Below, piece after piece: positions 1 to 20,159 of a stretch of DNA of 30,556 nt. The notes beneath the pieces were generated by a model. That model did no database searches. It saw only the letters and a program-made list of their open reading frames with translations, and was not told where the DNA came from. The position numbers and the translations under genes are program-made. Source of the DNA: a virus; IMG/VR virus record IMGVR_UViG_3300013131_000168, positions 1 to 30,556 of that record. One strand, written 5' to 3'. Every line of letters begins with the position of its first letter. Positions within the stretch are counted from its first letter, which is position 1.

Positions 1-14
1 TTGTGCTTGTTTTT

Positions 15-92
15 GCTCTCATCGTCTATTGGTTTGAGGACGCTGCCCTTTCAAGGCAGAAAGCGTGGGTTCGAATCCCCGTGGGAGCGCCA
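15..92 (+). tRNA. tRNA-Glu(UUC)
   Basis: Full cloverleaf. Acceptor GCTCTCA pairs with TGGGAGC (one G-U), anticodon TTC lies in a CTGCC/GGCAG arm, the T-loop is TTCGAAT, and CCA is encoded at 90-92. The CCA is also the first part of the inverted-repeat hairpin 90-156, so 3' processing and that hairpin are physically linked. Confidence 0.95.
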
Positions 93-156
93 TATTGAAG
101 TGCATTGCCGAACAGACAAATGGTGATGAACCGATGAGTAGTGCATTTCAATATGG
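90..156 (+). repeat. Inverted-repeat hairpin A (CATATT family)
   Basis: A 15-bp stem: CCATATTGAAGTGCA (90-104) against TGCATTTCAATATGG (142-156), with one G-U pair and a 37-nt loop. It starts on the CCA end of tRNA-Glu. The stem is nearly the same as in hairpins B (338-435) and C (588-656), and the differences between copies are compensatory. I see no protein or known RNA family in the loop. A structured spacer or processing element is the simplest reading. Confidence 0.8.
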
Positions 157-203
157 TGAGAGAGTAATTAACTCTTAGCATAGTCGGAAGTCATGACTCC
201 GGC

Positions 204-334
204 GATCCGTGGTAGTGTAATGGTGAACACGCAGAGAGGCGTGGGTTCGAGTCCCACCTGCTTCGCAAGGGGCAGTAGCTTAGAGGTTAGAGTGCAGCGA
301 AATGAGGGTTTCGAAATCCCTCCCACAATGGATC
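204..334 (+). ncRNA. Double tRNA-elbow RNA without anticodon arms
   Basis: Seen in the sequence: an outer stem, GATCC+GTGG (204-212) with CCAC+GGATC (323-326, 330-334; AAT bulge), is followed by TA and a D-arm (GTGT/ACAC, 215-230, loop with GG). After ten bases comes a T-arm (GTGGG TTCGAGT CCCAC, 241-257), joined directly to an inner stem CTGCTTC/GGGGCAG (258-275) capped by the tetraloop GCAA. Then come TA, a second D-arm (278-293), ten bases, and a second T-arm (GAGGG/CCCTC, 304-322, core loop TTCGAAA) that joins the outer stem. Both stems have the tRNA linkages acceptor-TA-D-arm and T-arm-acceptor, but no anticodon arm is present. Two small hairpins precede it (161-175 and 185-201). It could be a degenerate pair of tRNAs, but acceptor pairing fits only the interleaved fold. 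Confidence 0.65.
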
Positions 335-337
335 AAT

Positions 338-435
338 CATATTGAAGCACATTCCTGCCGTATTGGTCTACGGTTCGAAAAGCGTTAGGACCTAGAGTAA
401 CCGTCTAGGGAGTTTGATGAGTGTGTTTCAATATG
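338..435 (+). repeat. Inverted-repeat hairpin B (CATATT family)
   Basis: Stem CATATTGAAGCACA (338-351) against TGTGTTTCAATATG (422-435), 14 bp with one G-U. The 70-nt interior has its own small stems, for example CCTAGA/TCTAGG around 400-417. Compared with hairpin A, the inner pairs change from T-A and G-C to C-G and A-T, which keeps the helix. Confidence 0.8.
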
Positions 436-440
436 GTAGA

Positions 441-589
441 TGGTCGTTGTTAAAAATGGGTACTCAGAATATCCGTTCTGTAAAGGTGCAAATCCTGAAA
501 GTATAGTTGGGCGAGAAGGCCAGGAAATCCGAGGAGATCAACCAAGGGCTATATGCGTAGAGCACAGTAAAAAGAACATTGACCAGCCA
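441..589 (+). ncRNA. Unidentified structured RNA ending in GCCA
   Basis: TGGTCGTTGTT (441-451) pairs with AACATTGACCA (575-585) over 11 positions with one mismatch. The 3' strand is followed by G and CCA, like a tRNA acceptor end with a discriminator base. The interior holds a CAGAA/TTCTG hairpin near 465-480 and a GTTG/CAAC-closed domain near 506-542. No T-arm or anticodon arm is visible, so it is not a normal tRNA. An open frame of 120 codons (440-802) crosses it but continues through hairpin C and tRNA-Ala and is unlikely to be coding. Confidence 0.4.
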
Positions 590-656
590 TATTCAAGTAC
601 ACTTTATCAGGACAGTATTGTTCAGCGGTTTAGAGCCGTAAGTGTATTTCAATATG
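588..656 (+). repeat. Inverted-repeat hairpin C (CATATT family)
   Basis: CATATTCAAGTACACTT (588-604) against AAGTGTATTTCAATATG (640-656): 17 positions with one G-U and one C-C mismatch. It starts on the CCA end of the RNA at 441-589 and stops six bases before tRNA-Ala. Confidence 0.75.
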
Positions 657-662
657 GTAATT

Positions 663-737
663 GGGGGTTTAGTGATAACGGTAGCACAGGGGCTTTGCAA
701 GTCTTTAGTAGGAGTTCGATTCTCCTAGCCTCCACCA
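663..737 (+). tRNA. tRNA-Ala(UGC)
   Basis: Acceptor GGGGGTT/AGCCTCC has the G3-U70 alanine identity pair. Anticodon TGC is at 696-698, the T-loop is TTCGATT and CCA is encoded. The anticodon stem has several G-U pairs. Confidence 0.93.
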
Positions 738-849
738 AGTTTTTACTAGTGGTGAATTCATTGGCTATAGTGTGTAGGCATAAGATTTTGGTCCTTTCTT
801 AATGCTGAAACTACCTGGAGATTGCGACCAGGCACCACTAGTAAGAATT
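738..849 (+). repeat. Inverted-repeat hairpin D between tRNA-Ala and tRNA-Asp
   Basis: A 15-bp stem, 740-754 with 833-847 (core TTACTAGTGGTG/CACCACTAGTAA, one G-U). The loop contains CCTGG/CCAGG and a bulged GCATAAG/CTTAATGC stem. It begins right after the Ala CCA and ends within a few bases of the Asp 5' end. Its stem sequence is unrelated to hairpins A-C, but its placement is the same. Confidence 0.75.
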
Positions 850-850
850 T

Positions 851-925
851 GGTCTGTTAGTATATCGGCGAGTATAGCGCCCTGTCACGGCGCAGGAACG
901 GGTTCGAATCCCGTACAGACCGCCA
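851..925 (+). tRNA. tRNA-Asp(GUC)
   Basis: Acceptor GGTCTGT/ACAGACC, anticodon GTC at 884-886, T-loop TTCGAAT, discriminator G and encoded CCA. Confidence 0.95.
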
Positions 926-929
926 AGTT

Positions 930-1053
930 CCATTTGATATGTTGATTGTAAGCCATGGGCCCGATCATGCCTGAGTAACTATGTATATAATTGCGGTAAT
1001 TCTAGACTATTCCGCATGAGCATAGCAAATAGTGCAATCAACATATCAAATGG
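930..1053 (+). repeat. Inverted-repeat hairpin E between tRNA-Asp and tRNA-Tyr
   Basis: A perfect 19-bp stem, CCATTTGATATGTTGATTG (930-948) with 1035-1053. The last two bases of the stem are the first two bases of the tRNA-Tyr acceptor, so the hairpin and the mature tRNA cannot both form fully. The loop of about 86 nt has a GCGG/CCGC stem. Confidence 0.85.
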
Positions 1054-1139
1054 GTGCTGTTCCCTACGGCGGACTGTAAATCCGTTGCCATAATATGTAG
1101 GGTGGTGGCAGTTAGGTTCGATTCCTTCAGTACCCACCA
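1052..1139 (+). tRNA. tRNA-Tyr(GUA)
   Basis: Acceptor GGGTGCT/AGTACCC, anticodon GTA at 1076-1078, and a long variable arm as expected for bacterial Tyr. CCA is encoded. Confidence 0.93.
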
Positions 1140-1146
1140 AAATTTA

Positions 1147-1239
1147 GGAAGAGTTAGCCGAGTCGGTCTAGCGGCAGCAGTCTTGAAAACTGAGGGCTCA
1201 GAAATGGGTGTGTGAGTTCGAGTCTCACCTCTTCCGCCA
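1147..1239 (+). tRNA. tRNA-Ser(UGA)
   Basis: Acceptor GGAAGAG/CTCTTCC, anticodon TGA at 1184-1186, long variable arm (class II), discriminator G, CCA encoded. It is the only clear serine tRNA here. Confidence 0.94.
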
Positions 1240-1246
1240 AGTATAG

Positions 1247-1323
1247 CTCGGTGTAGTTCCAATTGGTAGAACGGTGGTCTCCAAAACCATATGTTGGCGG
1301 TTCGAATCCGTCCACCGAGGCCA
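1247..1323 (+). tRNA. tRNA-Trp(CCA)
   Basis: Acceptor CTCGGTG/CACCGAG, anticodon CCA at 1281-1283, discriminator G, 3' CCA encoded. Confidence 0.93.
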
Positions 1324-1329
1324 AACTAT

Positions 1330-1407
1330 TGGGGGTTAGCTTAGTCAGGTCTAAAGCACTAGTCTTTGAAATTAGGATCACTGGTTCGAATCCAGTACCC
1401 CTTGCCA
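1330..1407 (+). tRNA. tRNA-Gln(UUG)
   Basis: Anticodon TTG at 1366-1368 in a CTAGT/ATTAG arm. The acceptor TGGGGGT/ACCCCTT begins with an open U1-U72, in keeping with the weak first pair of glutamine tRNAs. Discriminator G, CCA encoded. Confidence 0.9.
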
Positions 1408-1412
1408 GTCAT

Positions 1413-1488
1413 GCTCCCATAGTGTGCAATGGTAACACACTGCCATGGTAAGGCAGAGACGATGGTTCGAATCCATCTAGGAGCACCA
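1413..1488 (+). tRNA. tRNA-Thr(GGU)
   Basis: Anticodon GGT at 1447-1449 in a CTGCC/GGCAG arm. Acceptor GCTCCCA/TAGGAGC has one C-A mismatch. CCA encoded. Confidence 0.93.
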
Positions 1489-1494
1489 ATCAAT

Positions 1495-1570
1495 GGTGGT
1501 TGTAGCACAATGGTAGTGCCACGGTTTGTGAGACCGCAAAGTGTGAGTTCGAATCTCATCAACCACCCCA
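1495..1570 (+). tRNA. tRNA-His(GUG)
   Basis: Anticodon GTG at 1528-1530. It has the histidine signature: an extra 5' G at 1495 facing discriminator C73 (1567). Acceptor GTGGTTG/CAACCAC, CCA encoded. Confidence 0.94.
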
Positions 1571-1575
1571 ATTAT

Positions 1576-1649
1576 GCCTTCGTCGGTTAGTGGTAAACCA
1601 ACGGTTTTGTAATCCGTGACTGTCTGTTCGATTCAGACCGAAGGCACCA
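1576..1649 (+). tRNA. tRNA-Thr(UGU)
   Basis: Acceptor GCCTTCG/CGAAGGC, anticodon TGT at 1608-1610 in an ACGGT/TCCGT arm, CCA encoded. Confidence 0.94.
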
Positions 1650-1655
1650 AATTAT

Positions 1656-1730
1656 ACCACTGTCGTTCAACGGATAGGACATAGGTCTTCTAAACCTAGA
1701 ATGAGGGTTCGATTCCTTCCGGTGGTGCCA
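1656..1730 (+). tRNA. tRNA-Arg(UCU)
   Basis: Acceptor ACCACTG/CGGTGGT, anticodon TCT at 1689-1691 in a TAGGT/ACCTA arm, discriminator G, CCA encoded. It reads AGA/AGG, codons favoured by AT-rich phages. Confidence 0.94.
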
Positions 1731-1736
1731 TGTAAT

Positions 1737-1813
1737 GCCCGGATGATGGAAATGGTATACATATTGGACTTAAAATTCAAGTTCTGCGGGTTCAAGTCCC
1801 GCTCCGGGTACCA
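1737..1813 (+). tRNA. tRNA-Leu(UAA), short variable region
   Basis: Anticodon TAA in a TTGGA/TTCAA arm (1770-1786). Acceptor GCCCGGA/TCCGGGT and the T-arm closely resemble ordinary bacterial tRNA-Leu(UAA). The variable region is only GTTCT instead of the long class II arm, giving 77 nt instead of about 87. Confidence 0.9.
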
Positions 1814-1814
1814 A

Positions 1815-1890
1815 GCCGAGTTAGCTCAGAGGTACGAGCGTCTGCCTTACAAGCAGAGGGTCAGTGGTTCGATCCCACTACTCGGTACCA
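1815..1890 (+). tRNA. tRNA-Val(UAC)
   Basis: Acceptor GCCGAGT/ACTCGGT, anticodon TAC at 1848-1850, standard D- and T-arms, CCA encoded. It lies one base after the preceding tRNA. Confidence 0.95.
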
Positions 1891-1896
1891 TATTTT

Positions 1897-1972
1897 CCGC
1901 CATTAGCTCAGTGAACAGAGCATAACGCTACGGACGTTAGGGTCGGGGGTTTGAATCCTTCATGGCGGGCCA
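1897..1972 (+). tRNA. tRNA-Arg(ACG)
   Basis: Acceptor CCGCCAT/ATGGCGG, anticodon ACG at 1930-1932 in a TAACG/CGTTA arm. A34 is presumably deaminated to inosine by host TadA. Discriminator G, CCA encoded. Confidence 0.93.
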
Positions 1973-1978
1973 AACAAT

Positions 1979-2052
1979 GCGGGTATAACTTAGTGGTAAA
2001 GTAACTGGCTTTTAACCAGTAAATCAGAGTTCGATTCTCTGTGCCCGTACCA
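1979..2052 (+). tRNA. tRNA-Lys(UUU)
   Basis: Acceptor GCGGGTA/TGCCCGT, anticodon TTT at 2011-2013 in an ACTGG/CCAGT arm, CCA encoded. Confidence 0.94.
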
Positions 2053-2057
2053 GTATT

Positions 2058-2136
2058 GCCCCCTTAGCTCATGGTTGGTTAGAGCAGCAAACTCATAATT
2101 TGAAGGTGCGTGGTTCGACTCCACGAGGGGGCACCA
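2058..2136 (+). tRNA. tRNA with CAU anticodon (elongator Met or Ile2)
   Basis: Acceptor GCCCCCT/AGGGGGC starts with a strong G1-C72 pair, so it is not an initiator. Anticodon CAT is at 2094-2096. The acceptor resembles bacterial tRNA-Ile2 (lysidine-modified) as much as elongator Met, and sequence alone does not decide. Confidence 0.92.
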
Positions 2137-2140
2137 AAAA

Positions 2141-2217
2141 GCCCGTGTGGTGCAATTGGTAGACACGCTTGACTTAGGATCAAGATGTTGAGGGTTCGAA
2201 TCCTTCTACGGGCACCA
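2141..2217 (+). tRNA. tRNA-Leu(UAG), short variable region
   Basis: Anticodon TAG at 2175-2177 in a CTTGA/TCAAG arm. Acceptor GCCCGTG/TACGGGC, CCA encoded. As in tRNA-Leu(UAA), the variable region is about five bases and the gene is 77 nt, so both leucine tRNAs are class I in shape. Confidence 0.9.
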
Positions 2218-2230
2218 GTATAAAGTTTAT

Positions 2231-2301
2231 TGCGGTGAGTCAGGTGAGAAGAGGGTCTCATAAGCCTTTCTTAGGTGGTTCGAATCCACCCGCCGCAACC
2301 A
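2231..2301 (+). tRNA. tRNA-Met-like (CAU) with reduced D-arm
   Basis: Acceptor TGCGGTG/CGCCGCA, anticodon CAT at 2259-2261, T-arm GGTGG TTCGAAT CCACC, CCA encoded. Only 14 bases (2238-2251) lie between acceptor and anticodon stem and no D-stem can be drawn. The 3' end resembles initiator tRNA, but U1-A72 is paired. It may be an altered initiator or elongator Met. Confidence 0.75.
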
Positions 2302-2306
2302 GAAAT

Positions 2307-2383
2307 GCGGGTATGGTGTTTAACGGTTAGCATGTCAGTCTTCCAAACTGAAGGTCCGAGTTCAAATCTCGGTGCCCGCTCCA
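2307..2383 (+). tRNA. tRNA-Gly(UCC)
   Basis: Acceptor GCGGGTA/TGCCCGC, anticodon TCC at 2342-2344, discriminator U, CCA encoded. Confidence 0.94.
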
Positions 2384-2389
2384 ATCAAT

Positions 2390-2467
2390 GTGTCGGTGGC
2401 AGAGTGGTCCAATGCAAGAGTCTGCAAAATTCTAAAGCCGCCAGTTCGAATCTGGCCCGACACTCCA
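2390..2467 (+). tRNA. tRNA-Cys(GCA)
   Basis: Acceptor GTGTCGG/CCGACAC, anticodon GCA at 2424-2426 in an AGAGT/ATTCT arm. U73, the cysteine identity base, is present. CCA encoded. Confidence 0.93.
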
Positions 2468-2471
2468 TTAT

Positions 2472-2546
2472 ACCAGATTAGCTCAGAGGTAGAGCAAACG
2501 ACCGATAATCGTTTGGTCAGTGGTTCGATCCCACTATCTGGTACCA
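2472..2546 (+). tRNA. tRNA-Ile(GAU), C at position 33
   Basis: Acceptor ACCAGAT/ATCTGGT, anticodon GAT at 2504-2506 in an AACGA/TCGTT arm. The loop reads CCGATAA, so the almost universal U33 is replaced by C. CCA encoded. Confidence 0.9.
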
Positions 2547-2551
2547 TATAT

Positions 2552-2627
2552 TGACCGAAACGCACAAAGGTGTGCGGCCGGACTGTTAATCCGTGTGAGT
2601 CAGGTTCGATCCCTGATCGGTCAGCCA
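2552..2627 (+). tRNA. tRNA-Asn(GUU)
   Basis: Acceptor TGACCGA/TCGGTCA, anticodon GTT at 2585-2587, D-stem GCAC/GTGC with a small loop, discriminator G, CCA encoded. Confidence 0.93.
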
Positions 2628-2938
2628 GAATCCCCGGCCCTACGCCGGTTAGCCAGTAGGCGTCTTATATGTGCGTGAACCATATTAGGTGCTATCATAC
2701 CTACCTCCCTCCGGGCCATTCATCCGGCAGGGTAAAATGTATGTGTAGGTCTTACCAGCCTAGAATAGGTACGGACAGGGCAACAACTCAAATCGGGGCT
2801 TATGGGAATAAGTAGCCGATACCATAACACGTGGCCATCAGCGTGTATAAAGGCGGCGAGTCTTAAACGAAGTCGGTGGCGGGATAGGTAGAACAGTTAC
2901 TCCGAAAGTGTAACGCCGGATTTTGTAACCGGCAACCA
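2628..2938 (+). ncRNA. Unidentified structured non-coding segment
   Basis: About 310 bases with no plausible gene but many local helices: CCGGC/GCCGG (near 2636-2650), CCGG/CCGG within CCCT/AGGG (near 2709-2733), ATCGG/CCGAT enclosing CTTAT/ATAAG (2793-2822), ACACG/CGTGT and GTTAC/GTAAC. GCCGGTT (2644-2650) can pair with AACCGGC (2927-2933), which is followed by AACCA, giving an acceptor-like closure. CCA at 2936-2938 leads directly into the next hairpin. No known family was recognised. Confidence 0.35.
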
Positions 2939-3028
2939 TATTAGAGCACCGAGTGAGACGGTATTGGTGTGCTGGAACCCTGCGAAGGGTATCTCTATTC
3001 TGGTTCGAATCCAGAGTGCTCTAATATG
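2937..3028 (+). ncRNA. tRNA-like element in a CATATT-type hairpin (F)
   Basis: A perfect 13-bp stem joins CATATTAGAGCAC (2937-2949) to GTGCTCTAATATG (3016-3028). Inside it, a canonical T-arm (TCTGG TTCGAAT CCAGA, 2999-3015) runs directly into the acceptor strand GTGCTCT. A CCG/CGG D-like arm and a CCCT GCGA AGGG hairpin follow the 5' strand. No convincing anticodon arm and no CCA are present. It links tRNAs to the CATATT hairpins A-C. A decayed class II tRNA (Ser-like) is an alternative. Confidence 0.5.
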
Positions 3029-3034
3029 ATTAAC

Positions 3035-3110
3035 GCCGACTAAGCTAATCTAGTGAAAGCGCTGGTCTGAAGAACCAGATAGCCTGGAGCGTAACCAGGA
3101 GTCGGCACCA
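3035..3110 (+). tRNA. tRNA-Phe(GAA), non-canonical elbow
   Basis: Acceptor GCCGACT/AGTCGGC, anticodon GAA at 3069-3071 in a CTGGT/ACCAG arm, CCA encoded. The T-loop is AGCGTAA instead of TTCRANN, and the D-loop has no GG pair, so the usual D-loop/T-loop contacts are missing from both sides. Confidence 0.85.
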
Positions 3111-3120
3111 AGGATTTATT

Positions 3121-3246
3121 ATGAACAAATACTTTATATTTTTCAACAATCTATATACAAGCACAAAGTTTACTCTTATGGAACTTTTGTTTATTGTTTG
3201 CCTGGTTTCATATGTTTTTTATAGTATAATTAACTCGGTGTGGTGA
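3121..3246 (+). CDS. Small membrane protein (41 aa)
   Basis: An ATG six bases after AAGGA opens a 41-codon frame. It encodes one hydrophobic helix (residues about 19-38, LMELLFIVCLVSYVFYSII) and ends inside tRNA-Pro. The frame lies in a 120-base gap between tRNAs with much lower GC than the array. The ribosome-binding site and membrane segment favour a real gene, but the overlap with tRNA-Pro and the short length are against it. Function unknown. Confidence 0.35.
   Translation: MNKYFIFFNNLYTSTKFTLMELLFIVCLVSYVFYSIINSVW
3225..3230 (+). promoter_or_regulatory. Possible -10 box before tRNA-Pro
   Basis: A perfect TATAAT ends three bases before tRNA-Pro, in AT-rich DNA. No good -35 hexamer sits at 16-18 bases. 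If active, it would transcribe tRNA-Pro and the genes after it apart from the main array. Confidence 0.35.
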
Positions 3247-3307
3247 AATGGTATCATTCGTGCTTTGGGAGCATGAGGCGCAAGTTCGATTCTTGCCACC
3301 GAGACCA
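3234..3307 (+). tRNA. tRNA-Pro(UGG)
   Basis: Acceptor CTCGGTG/CACCGAG, anticodon TGG at 3266-3268 in a CGTGC/GCATG arm, discriminator A, CCA encoded. It stands apart from the main array. Confidence 0.94.
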
Positions 3308-3326
3308 AATATATAAGGATGCTATC

Positions 3327-3794
3327 ATGCGTAAGATAGATTTACAGGAAGTCAAACAGTTTATTCAAGCACAAAGCCCTGAAACTAAAATCTATCTTGG
3401 GTGTGATTCAGAAAGATTTAAGATTGATAAAGTTTGGTATGCAGATTATATAACAGCAATTGTAGTTCATATTGACGGAAAGCATGGATGTAAAATTTTT
3501 GGTGGTGTTGAACGTGAAAGAGATTATGACCAAAAACAAAATCGTCCTAGATACCGTTTAATGAATGAAGTTTACAAAGTGAGTCAATTGTATTTGGATT
3601 TGGTTGATGTATTGGAAGACCGTTTAGTTGAAGTTCATTTGGATATTAACCCCGATGAAATGCACGGTTCATCTTGTGTTATCAACGAAGCTATTGGTTA
3701 CATTCGTGGAACCTGTAATGTGATTCCTTTGGTTAAACCTCAAGCATTTGCGGCTTCATATGCAGCTGATCGGTTTAAGTCTATTGCAGCTTAA
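3327..3794 (+). CDS. YkuK-type RNase H-fold protein
   Basis: A 155-residue protein starting at ATG 3327, eight bases after AAGGA. An earlier in-frame start would lie inside tRNA-Pro. Near the N-terminus YLGCDSE (D27) and later VHLDINP resemble the acidic motifs of the YkuK/DUF458 group, which is predicted to have an RNase H-like fold. The exact substrate of that family is not known to me. The gene sits between tRNA-Pro and tRNA-Gly, so a role in RNA metabolism would fit, but that is inference from position. Confidence 0.7.
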   Translation: MRKIDLQEVKQFIQAQSPETKIYLGCDSERFKIDKVWYADYITAIVVHIDGKHGCKIFGGVERERDYDQKQNRPRYRLMNEVYKVSQLYLDLVDVLEDRLVEVHLDINPDEMHGSSCVINEAIGYIRGTCNVIPLVKPQAFAASYAADRFKSIAA

Positions 3795-3797
3795 TTA

Positions 3798-3873
3798 GCG
3801 GGTGTGGTGCTAACGGTTAACACACGACCTTGCCAAGGTTGAGTTGAGGGTTCGATTCCCTCTACCCGCTCCA
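3798..3873 (+). tRNA. tRNA-Gly(GCC)
   Basis: Acceptor GCGGGTG/TACCCGC, anticodon GCC at 3832-3834 in a CGACC/GGTTG arm, discriminator U, CCA encoded. It begins three bases after the stop codon of the YkuK-type gene. Confidence 0.94.
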
Positions 3874-3885
3874 CTGGAGTTTAAT

Positions 3886-4656
3886 ATGAATATACTTGTT
3901 ACTGGTCATAGAGGATTTATAGGTTCAAATCTGTTTAAGGCTCTATCAAAAGACCATAGTGTTTCTGGTTTTGATTGGGTAGAAGGTGGATTTTTTCCTG
4001 ACATTTCTAATTTTGATTGGGTCATTCATTTAGGCGCAATAAGTGCTACCACTGAAAGTGACGTTGAAAAGATCATGAAGCGTAACTATGATTTTTCAGT
4101 TAAACTTTTTGATGCTTGTTTTGATTACCAAGTTAATTTACAATATGCTTCATCGGCACAATTGTATGGTCTTGGTACAAATTTTAAAGAAGATGCTCCG
4201 CCAGATCCAAGGTCACCATATGCTTGGACGAAATATCTCTTTGAGCGATATGTTAAACAAAATGATCCGCCACATATAACCGTCCAAGGTTTCCGTTACT
4301 TCAATGTATATGGTCCTGGTGAAGAACACAAAGGTAATCAAGCCAGTCCGTTTACTAAATTTAAAAAACAAAAAGAAGAACGTGGTTACATTGAAGTATT
4401 TGCGCCGGCCGGAAAATACAAGCGTGATTTCATCCATGTGGATGATGTAGTTAATTACCATTTACAATTTTTAAACGTTAAACAAAATGGCGTTTGGAAT
4501 ATAGGCTCAGGCAAACCAAGAAGTTTTCTGGAAATAGCACAAGAAATTGGTGGCGAAATACGAGAAGTGCCAGTGCCAGAGAACATCAGACCTTGGTATC
4601 AGGAATGGACTTGCGCTGATATGACCAAAACGAAAACTACTTTAGGTCTCCTATGA
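3886..4656 (+). CDS. HldD-like nucleotide-sugar epimerase
   Basis: A 256-residue extended short-chain dehydrogenase. It has the NAD-binding motif TGHRGFIG (G7, G10, G13), an active-site YAWTK (Y112, K116) and SS at 89-90. HLGAISATTE and FRYFNVYGPGEEHKG match the signatures of ADP-glyceromanno-heptose 6-epimerase, which makes a lipopolysaccharide core sugar precursor. Bacterial HldD is about 310 residues, so this copy is shorter. The ATG at 3886 follows TGGAG; an upstream start would lie in tRNA-Gly. The next gene overlaps its stop (ATGA). A role in changing host LPS during infection is inference. Confidence 0.8.
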   Translation: MNILVTGHRGFIGSNLFKALSKDHSVSGFDWVEGGFFPDISNFDWVIHLGAISATTESDVEKIMKRNYDFSVKLFDACFDYQVNLQYASSAQLYGLGTNFKEDAPPDPRSPYAWTKYLFERYVKQNDPPHITVQGFRYFNVYGPGEEHKGNQASPFTKFKKQKEERGYIEVFAPAGKYKRDFIHVDDVVNYHLQFLNVKQNGVWNIGSGKPRSFLEIAQEIGGEIREVPVPENIRPWYQEWTCADMTKTKTTLGLL

Positions 4657-19116: not shown

Positions 19117-19246
19117 AAGAGAAGATTTGTTTATTGGTTATTTCGTATTTTCGTTGATGTTTATTGGAATATTTTTTGATGTTGGTCCTGTTTGTATGGT
19201 AGGATGGAATCCAATGTTAGGAGAATGTTCTAACATTGTGAGGTAA
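19106..19246 (+). CDS. Small membrane protein (46 aa)
   Basis: Begins inside the end of the nuclease gene with GGGAGG six bases upstream. The protein has one hydrophobic segment (IGYFVFSLMFIGIFFDVG) followed by a C-terminal part with two cysteines. It ends just before the tmRNA gene. Function unknown. Confidence 0.55.
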   Translation: MLSKREDLFIGYFVFSLMFIGIFFDVGPVCMVGWNPMLGECSNIVR

Positions 19247-19312
19247 GATATTGCTGTATGAAGCAAAGAGAAAAGTGTTCTGGACGGCGGTTCGATTCCG
19301 CCCAGGTCCACC

Positions 19313-19397
19313 AAAAGTATATTTGAATCTGTAAAAAGATAGGGTTTGGTATCCCAGTCCTCTACCTGTAAGACTTAATACACCGAAATATACTTTT
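19313..19397 (+). repeat. Linker hairpin of the permuted tmRNA
   Basis: A 12-bp perfect inverted repeat brackets the 61-nt segment that is presumably cut out to yield the two-piece tmRNA. It starts on the last base of CCA and ends three bases before the mature 5' end, the same arrangement as the hairpins between tRNAs at 90-1053. Confidence 0.85.
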
Positions 19398-19507
19398 GAG
19401 GGGCCTGTACAGGTTTCGACAGGGCAAAGAGTAACAGAGTGGACAGCACGGCAACGCCAAAGCCGTTAGGGTTGGGACTTCCCGGCCGTAGAAGCAAAAC
19501 GTTAAGC

Positions 19508-19540
19508 GCAAATGACGAAAGATTTGCATTAGCAGCCTAA
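19508..19540 (+). other. tmRNA tag reading frame (ANDERFALAA)
   Basis: GCA-AAT-GAC-GAA-AGA-TTT-GCA-TTA-GCA-GCC followed by TAA. The Ala resume codon and ALAA end are the degradation tag recognised by ClpXP. ANDERFALAA-type tags are typical of betaproteobacteria. Confidence 0.93.
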
Positions 19541-19610
19541 ACACTGCTTAGGGTTTCGGTGGGTTTCCTCGTAACAGAATAACCCACCATATCACACACA
19601 AGGAGAGTAG

Positions 19611-20159
19611 ATGAAAAAGACCATTTTAGCATTAGCATTAGCGGCTGCAGCTTCAGCATCACAAGCAGCTAATTATGTGAGTTTTGATGTAGACCAAGTT
19701 ACTGATACACGCCAAAAGGGAAGACCAGAATCTACAGCACAATATTTCCGTGCTGGTAAAGATATGGCCGGACTTAACTGGGATATGCAAGTTCGTACAG
19801 CCGTGTTTGATAAAGGCGGTATGTTGAACAGTGTTGAAGTGACTGCTGGTAAAAATATTGCTGGAGTCAATGCTTTTGGTGGTGTTGGTTATGATAACGG
19901 TTTCAACGGTAAAGTGAATGGTGATTTTACTTATGGCTTAGTTGGTGTTAGAGCTGGTGTTCCAATCGGACCTGTTTATGCCTTTACTGGAGTTAAAACA
20001 CGGGTAAATTGGGATAACGATAACCCAAAGCAAACTGTTACATGGGTTGGTGCGAGTTTACCAATCACAAAATCAGCCAGTGTAAGTGCTAGTTTGAGCC
20101 GTTCCCTTCAGGATATTGAAGAGAAAGCAGTTGGCGTAGGCCTTCGTTTCTCGTACTAA
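19611..20159 (+). CDS. Outer-membrane beta-barrel protein
   Basis: 182 residues. Signal peptide MKKTILALALAAAASASQAA (1-20). The rest is alternating beta strands and ends in VGLRFSY, with a terminal aromatic residue as BamA-type signals require. About eight strands are likely. The ATG follows AAGGAGAG, eight bases away. It sits right after the tmRNA. A phage-made porin-like barrel may change surface receptors or permeability; that is inference. Confidence 0.8.
   Translation: MKKTILALALAAAASASQAANYVSFDVDQVTDTRQKGRPESTAQYFRAGKDMAGLNWDMQVRTAVFDKGGMLNSVEVTAGKNIAGVNAFGGVGYDNGFNGKVNGDFTYGLVGVRAGVPIGPVYAFTGVKTRVNWDNDNPKQTVTWVGASLPITKSASVSASLSRSLQDIEEKAVGVGLRFSY

Follow-up and report, generated by a model that had tools for sequence, protein, structure and literature searches.

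The tRNA elbow is recognized by RNase P, T-boxes, RNase Z and other factors, and it is mimicked by the tRNA-like structures of plant viruses (PMC4810234), which have a single elbow and a chargeable acceptor end and belong to RNA genomes. Another mimic, the bacterial Y RNA YrlA, carries one elbow on a Ro60-binding stem; DusA and TruB modify it, PNPase binds to its tRNA-like domain (PMC8394870), and it has been proposed to act as a competitor for an anticodon nuclease (PMC7790460). Phages encode further non-coding RNAs in the neighbourhood of their tRNA genes. GOLLD and ROOL, of 400-800 nt and without tRNA elbows, are phage RNAs found near tRNA islands that form homo-oligomers through kissing loops (PMC12286853). 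The stable RNAs C and D of T4 (species 1 and 2) are non-tRNA products of the phage tRNA cluster, and RNA C has a T-arm. We know of no described counterpart of the tRNA-derived fold presented below, which contains two elbows.

The DNA analysed here is an IMG/VR virus record of 30,556 bases, the whole of which we refer to as the window; it contains T4-like phage genes for SSB, a helicase loader, a tail tube and a baseplate hub. About 23 tRNA genes form an array at positions 1-3900. Separate from this array is a permuted tmRNA (19207-19631, plus strand; tag ANDERFALAA; 124 bits with RF04321 and 113 bits with RF01850), and the beta-type tmRNA match hints at a betaproteobacterial host. Between tRNA-Glu (15-92) and tRNA-Ala (663-737), at 157-334 on the plus strand, lies the double-elbow RNA, presumably transcribed together with the array. 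Its existence, predicted fold, conservation and location in tRNA arrays are established by comparison with related phage sequences, and we class it as a new RNA family within the known non-coding tRNA mimics.

A first-pass annotation had described positions 204-334 as an RNA in which two D-arms and two T-arms alternate, without anticodon arms. Direct reading bears this out, with UA, the equivalent of tRNA positions 8-9, standing before each D-arm; the conserved RNA begins earlier, however, at about 157, and includes two hairpins that had been missed. HP1 (157-177) has a stem of 157-162/172-177 and a 9-nt loop (163-171, AGUAAUUAA) with the hexamer UAAUUA, and HP2 (183-203) has a stem of 183-188/198-203 and a loop (189-197, AGUCAUGAC) with UCAUGA, adjoining the following helix with no linker. 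That outer, acceptor-like helix pairs a 5' strand at 204-212 (GATCC plus GTGG) with a 3' strand at 323-334 (CCAC-AAU-GGATC). Within it follow UA and D-arm 1 (213-230, the D-arm itself at 215-230; stem GTGT/ACAC), linker 1 (231-240, GCAGAGAGGC), T-arm 1 (241-257; stem GTGGG/CCCAC, loop UUCGAGU), an inner acceptor stem (258-275) whose seven pairs CTGCTTC/GGGGCAG (258-264/269-275) are capped by GCAA, UA and D-arm 2 (276-293, the D-arm at 278-293; stem GCTT/GAGT), linker 2 (294-303, GCAGCGAAAT) and T-arm 2 (304-322; stem GAGGG/CCCTC, 9-nt loop UUUCGAAAU). The outer helix had been correctly recognized except for its AAU bulge (327-329), which is nearly invariant: nearly all clade A members and the cultured-phage relatives have it, the exceptions being AGU (L281), ACG (L283) and a single C (L255). 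The anticodon arm and the CCA-ended acceptor of a tRNA are both absent, the acceptor being closed by the bulged helix; lacking both an anticodon loop and a free CCA end, the RNA can therefore neither decode nor be charged.

The annotation also held that acceptor pairing is swapped, the outer stem joining D-arm 1 with T-arm 2 and the inner stem T-arm 1 with D-arm 2. In the window the swapped inner stem forms seven of seven pairs, as against four and three of seven for the un-swapped pairings, and covariation among independent phage sequences supports both stems, so that a fold with two interleaved elbows is well supported by comparative evidence. When 12 double-elbow sequences from uncultivated phages, in a plain MAFFT alignment, were evaluated against the proposed structure and 500 shuffles, 94.2% of cells were paired (82.1% when shuffled); two-sided changes at 23 of 46 pairs (shuffled mean 12.3) and a covariation score of 0.446 (0.207 shuffled) were each reached in 0 of 500 shuffles. 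Slid-partner controls gave only 30-54% pairing, and RNAalifold returned the same fold de novo, without prompting, with 23 covarying pairs.

Two-sided changes affect both 5' hairpins, the lower outer helix, the inner acceptor and the stems of all four arms. The arm stems are 100% paired in the 12 homologues, with two-sided changes at two pairs in each D-stem, at three pairs in T-arm 1 and at four of the five in T-arm 2. HP1 shows A-U, G-C, C-G and U-A at the same positions in different members, and the HP2 stem also covaries. Nearly fixed among the 12, the upper outer helix shows two-sided variation once the wider family is included (GUGG/CCAC, GUAG/CUAC, GCAA/UUGC), and over 21 family members two-sided changes affect all five lower pairs and three of the four upper ones. 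Compensation in the inner stem is exemplified by ACGTCAG/CTGGCGT, CCGTTCC/GGGACGG and CTGAGGCAC/GTGTCTCGG; this stem is weakest in L280 and L281, both of which pair in a shifted register. Neither swapped stem is dropped without compensation in the 12 aligned homologues, both being kept by compensatory change. Un-swapped pairing is poor in nearly all members, and only L245 pairs equally well un-swapped, in its first half.

Folding of individual sequences gives a different picture for one of the stems. At minimum energy (-43.0 kcal/mol, z -1.66), 204-334 retains the outer stem and breaks the inner acceptor, the strands of which pair elsewhere; averaged over the 12 homologues, the inner stem has a pairing probability of 0.51, and single-sequence energy models favour other folds by 4-19 kcal/mol, as they often do with tRNA-like RNAs. 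Single-sequence folding is weak evidence for this RNA and the minimum energy is not decisive; the homologues decide. They also narrow two details that the annotation had recorded accurately for the window: the GCAA cap is not a family feature, caps being 3-9 nt of any sequence, and the two ten-base linkers starting with GCAG, which give the RNA its pseudo-symmetry, have counterparts in which linker 1 is 9 or 10 nt, linker 2 being 10 nt in every homologue.

The length of the linkers has a parallel in tRNA, where the ten bases past the D-stem, once the anticodon loop is removed, comprise G26, about four stem bases and the five-base variable loop. On this reading linker 1 would consist of G26, one strand of a short shared anticodon stem and the variable loop of the inner elbow. 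The linkers can pair through their 5' parts, with three Watson-Crick pairs between GCAGA and GCRGC (four in L139 and L245); other pairings are UGAGAGA/GCRGACA (three pairs) and AGU/ACU in L255. Linker types are coupled without exception in 16 sequences, GCAG-type linker 1 occurring with GCRGCG linker 2 and UGAGAG-type linker 1 only with GCRGACA linker 2. This coupling, which is partly confounded by ancestry, suggests that the two tRNA bodies are joined tail to tail and share a short anticodon stem.

A pattern requiring a D-arm and then a T-arm within 18 nt identified L085 and the group L082-L098, whose members have two conserved hairpins immediately upstream in common; searching with a pattern based on these hairpins returned a large family. 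It includes 13 distinct double-elbow sequences (the window, L139, L270, L245, L250, L254, L255, L265, L276, L277, L280, L281 and L284), to which a pattern of D-arm 2, linker 2 and T-arm 2 alone added L330-L333, giving at least 17; HP1 and HP2 are present also in members found by patterns that do not use them. A sister form has the same two hairpins and the same AAU-bulged stalk with one elbow, and in the anticodon position a closed hairpin whose loop mostly lacks anticodon-loop features (L242, L244, L251, L259, L260, L263, L271, L282, L283, L286 and others); the second elbow is therefore dispensable. A second clade, clade B (L082-L098, L154, L210, L214), is distinguished by a UUGAUUA/UAAUCAG stalk and UUCGAA in HP2. 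Blast with single-elbow queries matched cultured N4-like phages, namely Alcaligenes phage QDWS595 (OK149171.2, 52625-52777, minus strand) and Achromobacter phages JWAlpha, Axy24, phiAxp-3, Axy11 and Axy10, and these elements are probable members because they have the AAU-bulged stalk and the T-arm in common with the family; Blast with several other members yielded no cultured phage. INPHARED Blast matches to window 228-292 were, with the query offset considered, ordinary tRNA-tRNA junctions or YrlA-like permuted elements, and were set aside. A descriptor scan of bacterial genomes gave 34 matches, none with HP1/HP2 and a D-arm.

All 36 family members that were checked lie at a locus with at least two tRNA genes. 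A whole-record search with model R1 found one match per record in 19 of 33 records, and the model had no match in the records of 10 relatives; R1 contains the HP1 pairs only, because RNAalifold returned no HP2 on alignment A4, and the divergent L337 escapes it in whole-record searching, as do the cultured phages. The carriers are large T4-like phages and probably N4-like phages too. No copy occurs in 80 relatives gathered through a neighbouring protein, and the RNA is therefore an accessory element.

No Rfam family covers 157-334, where only weak tRNA and YrlA matches are obtained. The annotation's statement that no RNA with this plan has been described holds for the whole and fails for the inner half (241-293), in which the permuted T-arm, capped acceptor hairpin, UA and D-arm reproduce the layout of YrlA (RF02553; PMC8394870); the plan is therefore only half unprecedented. 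Both RNAs are without an anticodon and without CCA, and the double-elbow RNA differs from YrlA by its second elbow, in normal order, and by its two hairpins. The joined double body, bulged stalk and two self-complementary hairpins were not found described in the literature and are, as far as we could find, new, the other half being known from YrlA and permuted tmRNA. In common with the plant-virus structures, the RNA would mimic the tRNA elbow. The T4 RNAs C and D have neither HP1/HP2 nor a double elbow, and model R1 gave no match in the T4 cluster (L326).

The loop hexamers of HP1 and HP2 are both self-complementary. UAAUUA is found in HP1 of nearly all members, with CUGCAG in L337 and L341 and UAAUUG, self-complementary only through a G.U pair, in L331; in HP2 the replacements are UAGCUA (L332), UAAUUA (L337 and L341) and UUCGAA (clade B), all self-complementary, the last being also an ordinary T-loop sequence. 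The changes in L331, L332, L337 and L341 come from members that were recovered by patterns in which neither hairpin was used. Within each member the two hexamers differ. Among unrelated 8-9-nt hairpin loops at the same loci, a hexamer palindrome occurs in 4.6-6.2%, and at positions 3-8 in less than 2%. Shorter HP2 loops in the cultured relatives (AUAGCUU, ACGCG, UUCAUGG) each hold a self-complementary tetramer. As 12-39% of loops of this kind contain one, the evidence from them is weaker, and HP1 of the cultured Achromobacter phages has no clear palindrome. Since the hexamers are self-complementary and stay so when changed, we propose a kissing-loop homo-oligomer, in which HP1 and HP2 loops would kiss the same loops of other copies and form a two-contact dimer, or a chain or ring; the A-U-only HP1 hexamer would make a weak kiss. 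In the dimerisation initiation site of HIV-1, a 6-nt palindrome is preceded by two purines and followed by one within a 9-nt loop, a format shared by HP1 (AG-UAAUUA-A); that site is part of a retroviral genomic RNA and has no homology to HP1.

Several other explanations of the locus deserve consideration. Two successive tRNA-like halves inside a tRNA array might be tandem tRNA genes that have decayed and lost their anticodon arms, and we regard the chance of this as negligible: the swapped acceptors show compensatory change across many phages, linker 2 is fixed at 10 nt and the extra hairpins are conserved. Covariation rules out such a pseudogene, and with the swapped pairing kept and the un-swapped poor, the locus therefore encodes a single RNA whose halves cross rather than a pair of decayed tRNAs. 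It is very improbable that the RNA is a stray tRNA-like domain from a permuted tmRNA, even though the order of T-arm, acceptor and D-arm is that of the permuted tmRNA precursor and RF04321 weakly matches the inner elbow in G014 and G015. The phage has its own intact permuted tmRNA elsewhere, with CCA and intervening segment, and the double-elbow RNA has none of the CCA, excised intervening segment and tag reading frame of permuted tmRNA (RF04321), its cap being 3-9 nt (4 nt in the window), and no member contains any sequence derived from tmRNA; an association between the two was rejected because nearly all tested large T4-like relatives carry a permuted tmRNA. The constant location within tRNA arrays, and the long inverted repeats that flank the RNA at 90-156 and 332-441, would suit an element that punctuates the polycistronic tRNA transcript or serves in its processing, such as a landing site for RNase P or RNase III. 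This too is quite improbable, given the single copy per array and the many relatives, indeed most, whose arrays lack the RNA, and it leaves the conserved HP1/HP2 loops unexplained; clade A RNAs would moreover be poor RNase P substrates because the bulged helix closes the acceptor.

Two further alternatives draw on described RNAs. In a phage Y RNA, a permuted tRNA mimic like that of YrlA would tether the Ro60/Rsr protein or PNPase; the inner half does fit the layout of YrlA positions 30-81, and better YrlA-like RNAs exist in other relatives of this phage (37.7 bits in L059). We consider this rather improbable, however. The YrlA model, whose gathering score is 69 bits, gives 22.2 bits in the window, 28.9 in L265 and 24.6 in L254, and a junction of two tRNAs in the window reaches 21 bits by chance. 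No TROVE (Ro60) gene was found in the 34 phage records searched, and the Ro-binding basal stem of YrlA is replaced by the second elbow. An Rsr partner may be encoded by the host. The main rival to the reading that we favour is an RNA-only scaffold or cage, as in GOLLD and ROOL, for which the self-complementary HP1 and HP2 loops would be the point and the elbows mere compact modules. Of the carrier records tested, 7 of 25 contain GOLLD, against 1 of 9 other T4-like relatives, and in L265 the tRNA array that carries the double-elbow RNA also has a GOLLD copy (RF02032, 4804-5219) about 1.3 kb further downstream; the co-occurrence is weak because three GOLLD-positive carriers are near-identical, and the association is suggestive only. 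Against a pure scaffold, there is no relation to GOLLD by sequence or structure and no Rfam GOLLD match at 157-334, nor does the GOLLD covariance model match anywhere in the window, ROOL is likewise unrelated in sequence, the RNA is only about 180 nt long, and the D-loop and T-loop letters of a true elbow, which would be superfluous in a scaffold, are conserved; we judge this explanation unlikely.

The conservation of elbow features and the shared YrlA layout therefore lead us to favour a self-assembling phage tRNA mimic serving as an elbow-displaying decoy or platform, a reading to which we give a roughly even chance. Roles as a mimic, decoy or platform are plausible. The conserved features are those seen by elbow-recognising factors, and a decoy or platform role is proposed here as a model. 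In the model, the two 5' hairpins would stack on the closed acceptor-like stalk, and the stalk would carry one elbow, made of D-arm 1 and T-arm 2. The place of the anticodon arm would be taken by a second, upside-down elbow (T-arm 1 and D-arm 2) bearing a capped acceptor stem of its own, and the linkers may form a short anticodon-stem-like helix common to both bodies. Kissing through HP1 and HP2 could then yield dimers, or still larger complexes, in which several elbows are presented together. Such assemblies might bind elbow-recognising proteins or RNPs, including modification enzymes, RNase P, PNPase and tRNA-cleaving host defences, and so titrate or tether them during infection. A bolder and tentative version, which we think possible without expecting it, is a new class of phage RNA machine in which tRNA bodies fused tail to tail by a common anticodon stem polymerise through two orthogonal self-complementary loops into an RNA-only elbow lattice that soaks up elbow-binding host factors, tRNA-cleaving defences among them.

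The family adds a covariation-supported RNA absent from Rfam 15 and demonstrates that phage tRNA arrays hold conserved non-tRNA RNAs. The role of array RNAs such as T4 RNA C and D, GOLLD and ROOL is an old question that so small an RNA makes testable, helped by the cultured Alcaligenes and Achromobacter phages, in which it has probable single-elbow relatives. Should it assemble as its loops suggest, tRNA elbows would be displayed by a natural assembly that is compact and made of RNA alone.

YrlA-like permuted mimics were encountered at L009:794-904, L024:1955-2053 and L059:6590-6688 (28.7-37.7 bits) and in L043 at about 2690-2830. These sit in an apparent H-type pseudoknot frame, GGATAC-ACGCAGCAA...GTATCC-TGTTG, which occurs without the tRNA module too, and no Ro60 gene was found in the four phages. 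Capped permuted T-arm/acceptor/D-arm elements are present as well in the cultured Microbacterium phage A3Wally (L124) and Rhodobacter phage RcXuper (L121), the latter directly beside a permuted tmRNA match.

We note several other features of the tRNA array. Inter-tRNA spacers at 90-156, 332-441, 588-656, 734-853 and 930-1053 form long near-perfect stems (CATATTGAAG..CTTCAATATGG and others) with differing interiors, and these stems recur in relatives, often on either side of the double-elbow RNA. Two unannotated inter-tRNA elements, at 436-497 and 2771-2817, give no Rfam match and are conserved in relatives (420-497 with 91% identity in L048; 2771-2817 with 82-87% identity in L046, L047, L048, L025 and L063); they are probably more unknown structured RNAs. 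A tRNA-like element at 2926-3032 (z-score -3.6) carries its T-arm on an acceptor stem that is extended and long (CATATTAGAGCAC/GTGCTCTAATATG). The tRNA-Phe (GAA) at 3035-3107 has an unusual T-loop, reading AGCGTAA where TTCRANN is the norm, and still scores 46 bits as a tRNA. Elsewhere, L093:4175-4217 is a tRNA-like gene with a miniature anticodon arm, CCC-AGTAA-GGG, and arrays of relatives contain tRNAs with the anticodon CUA, called as tRNA-Pyl (L043:1961-2035, L047:7178-7252 and L048:7180-7254), that are possibly amber suppressors.
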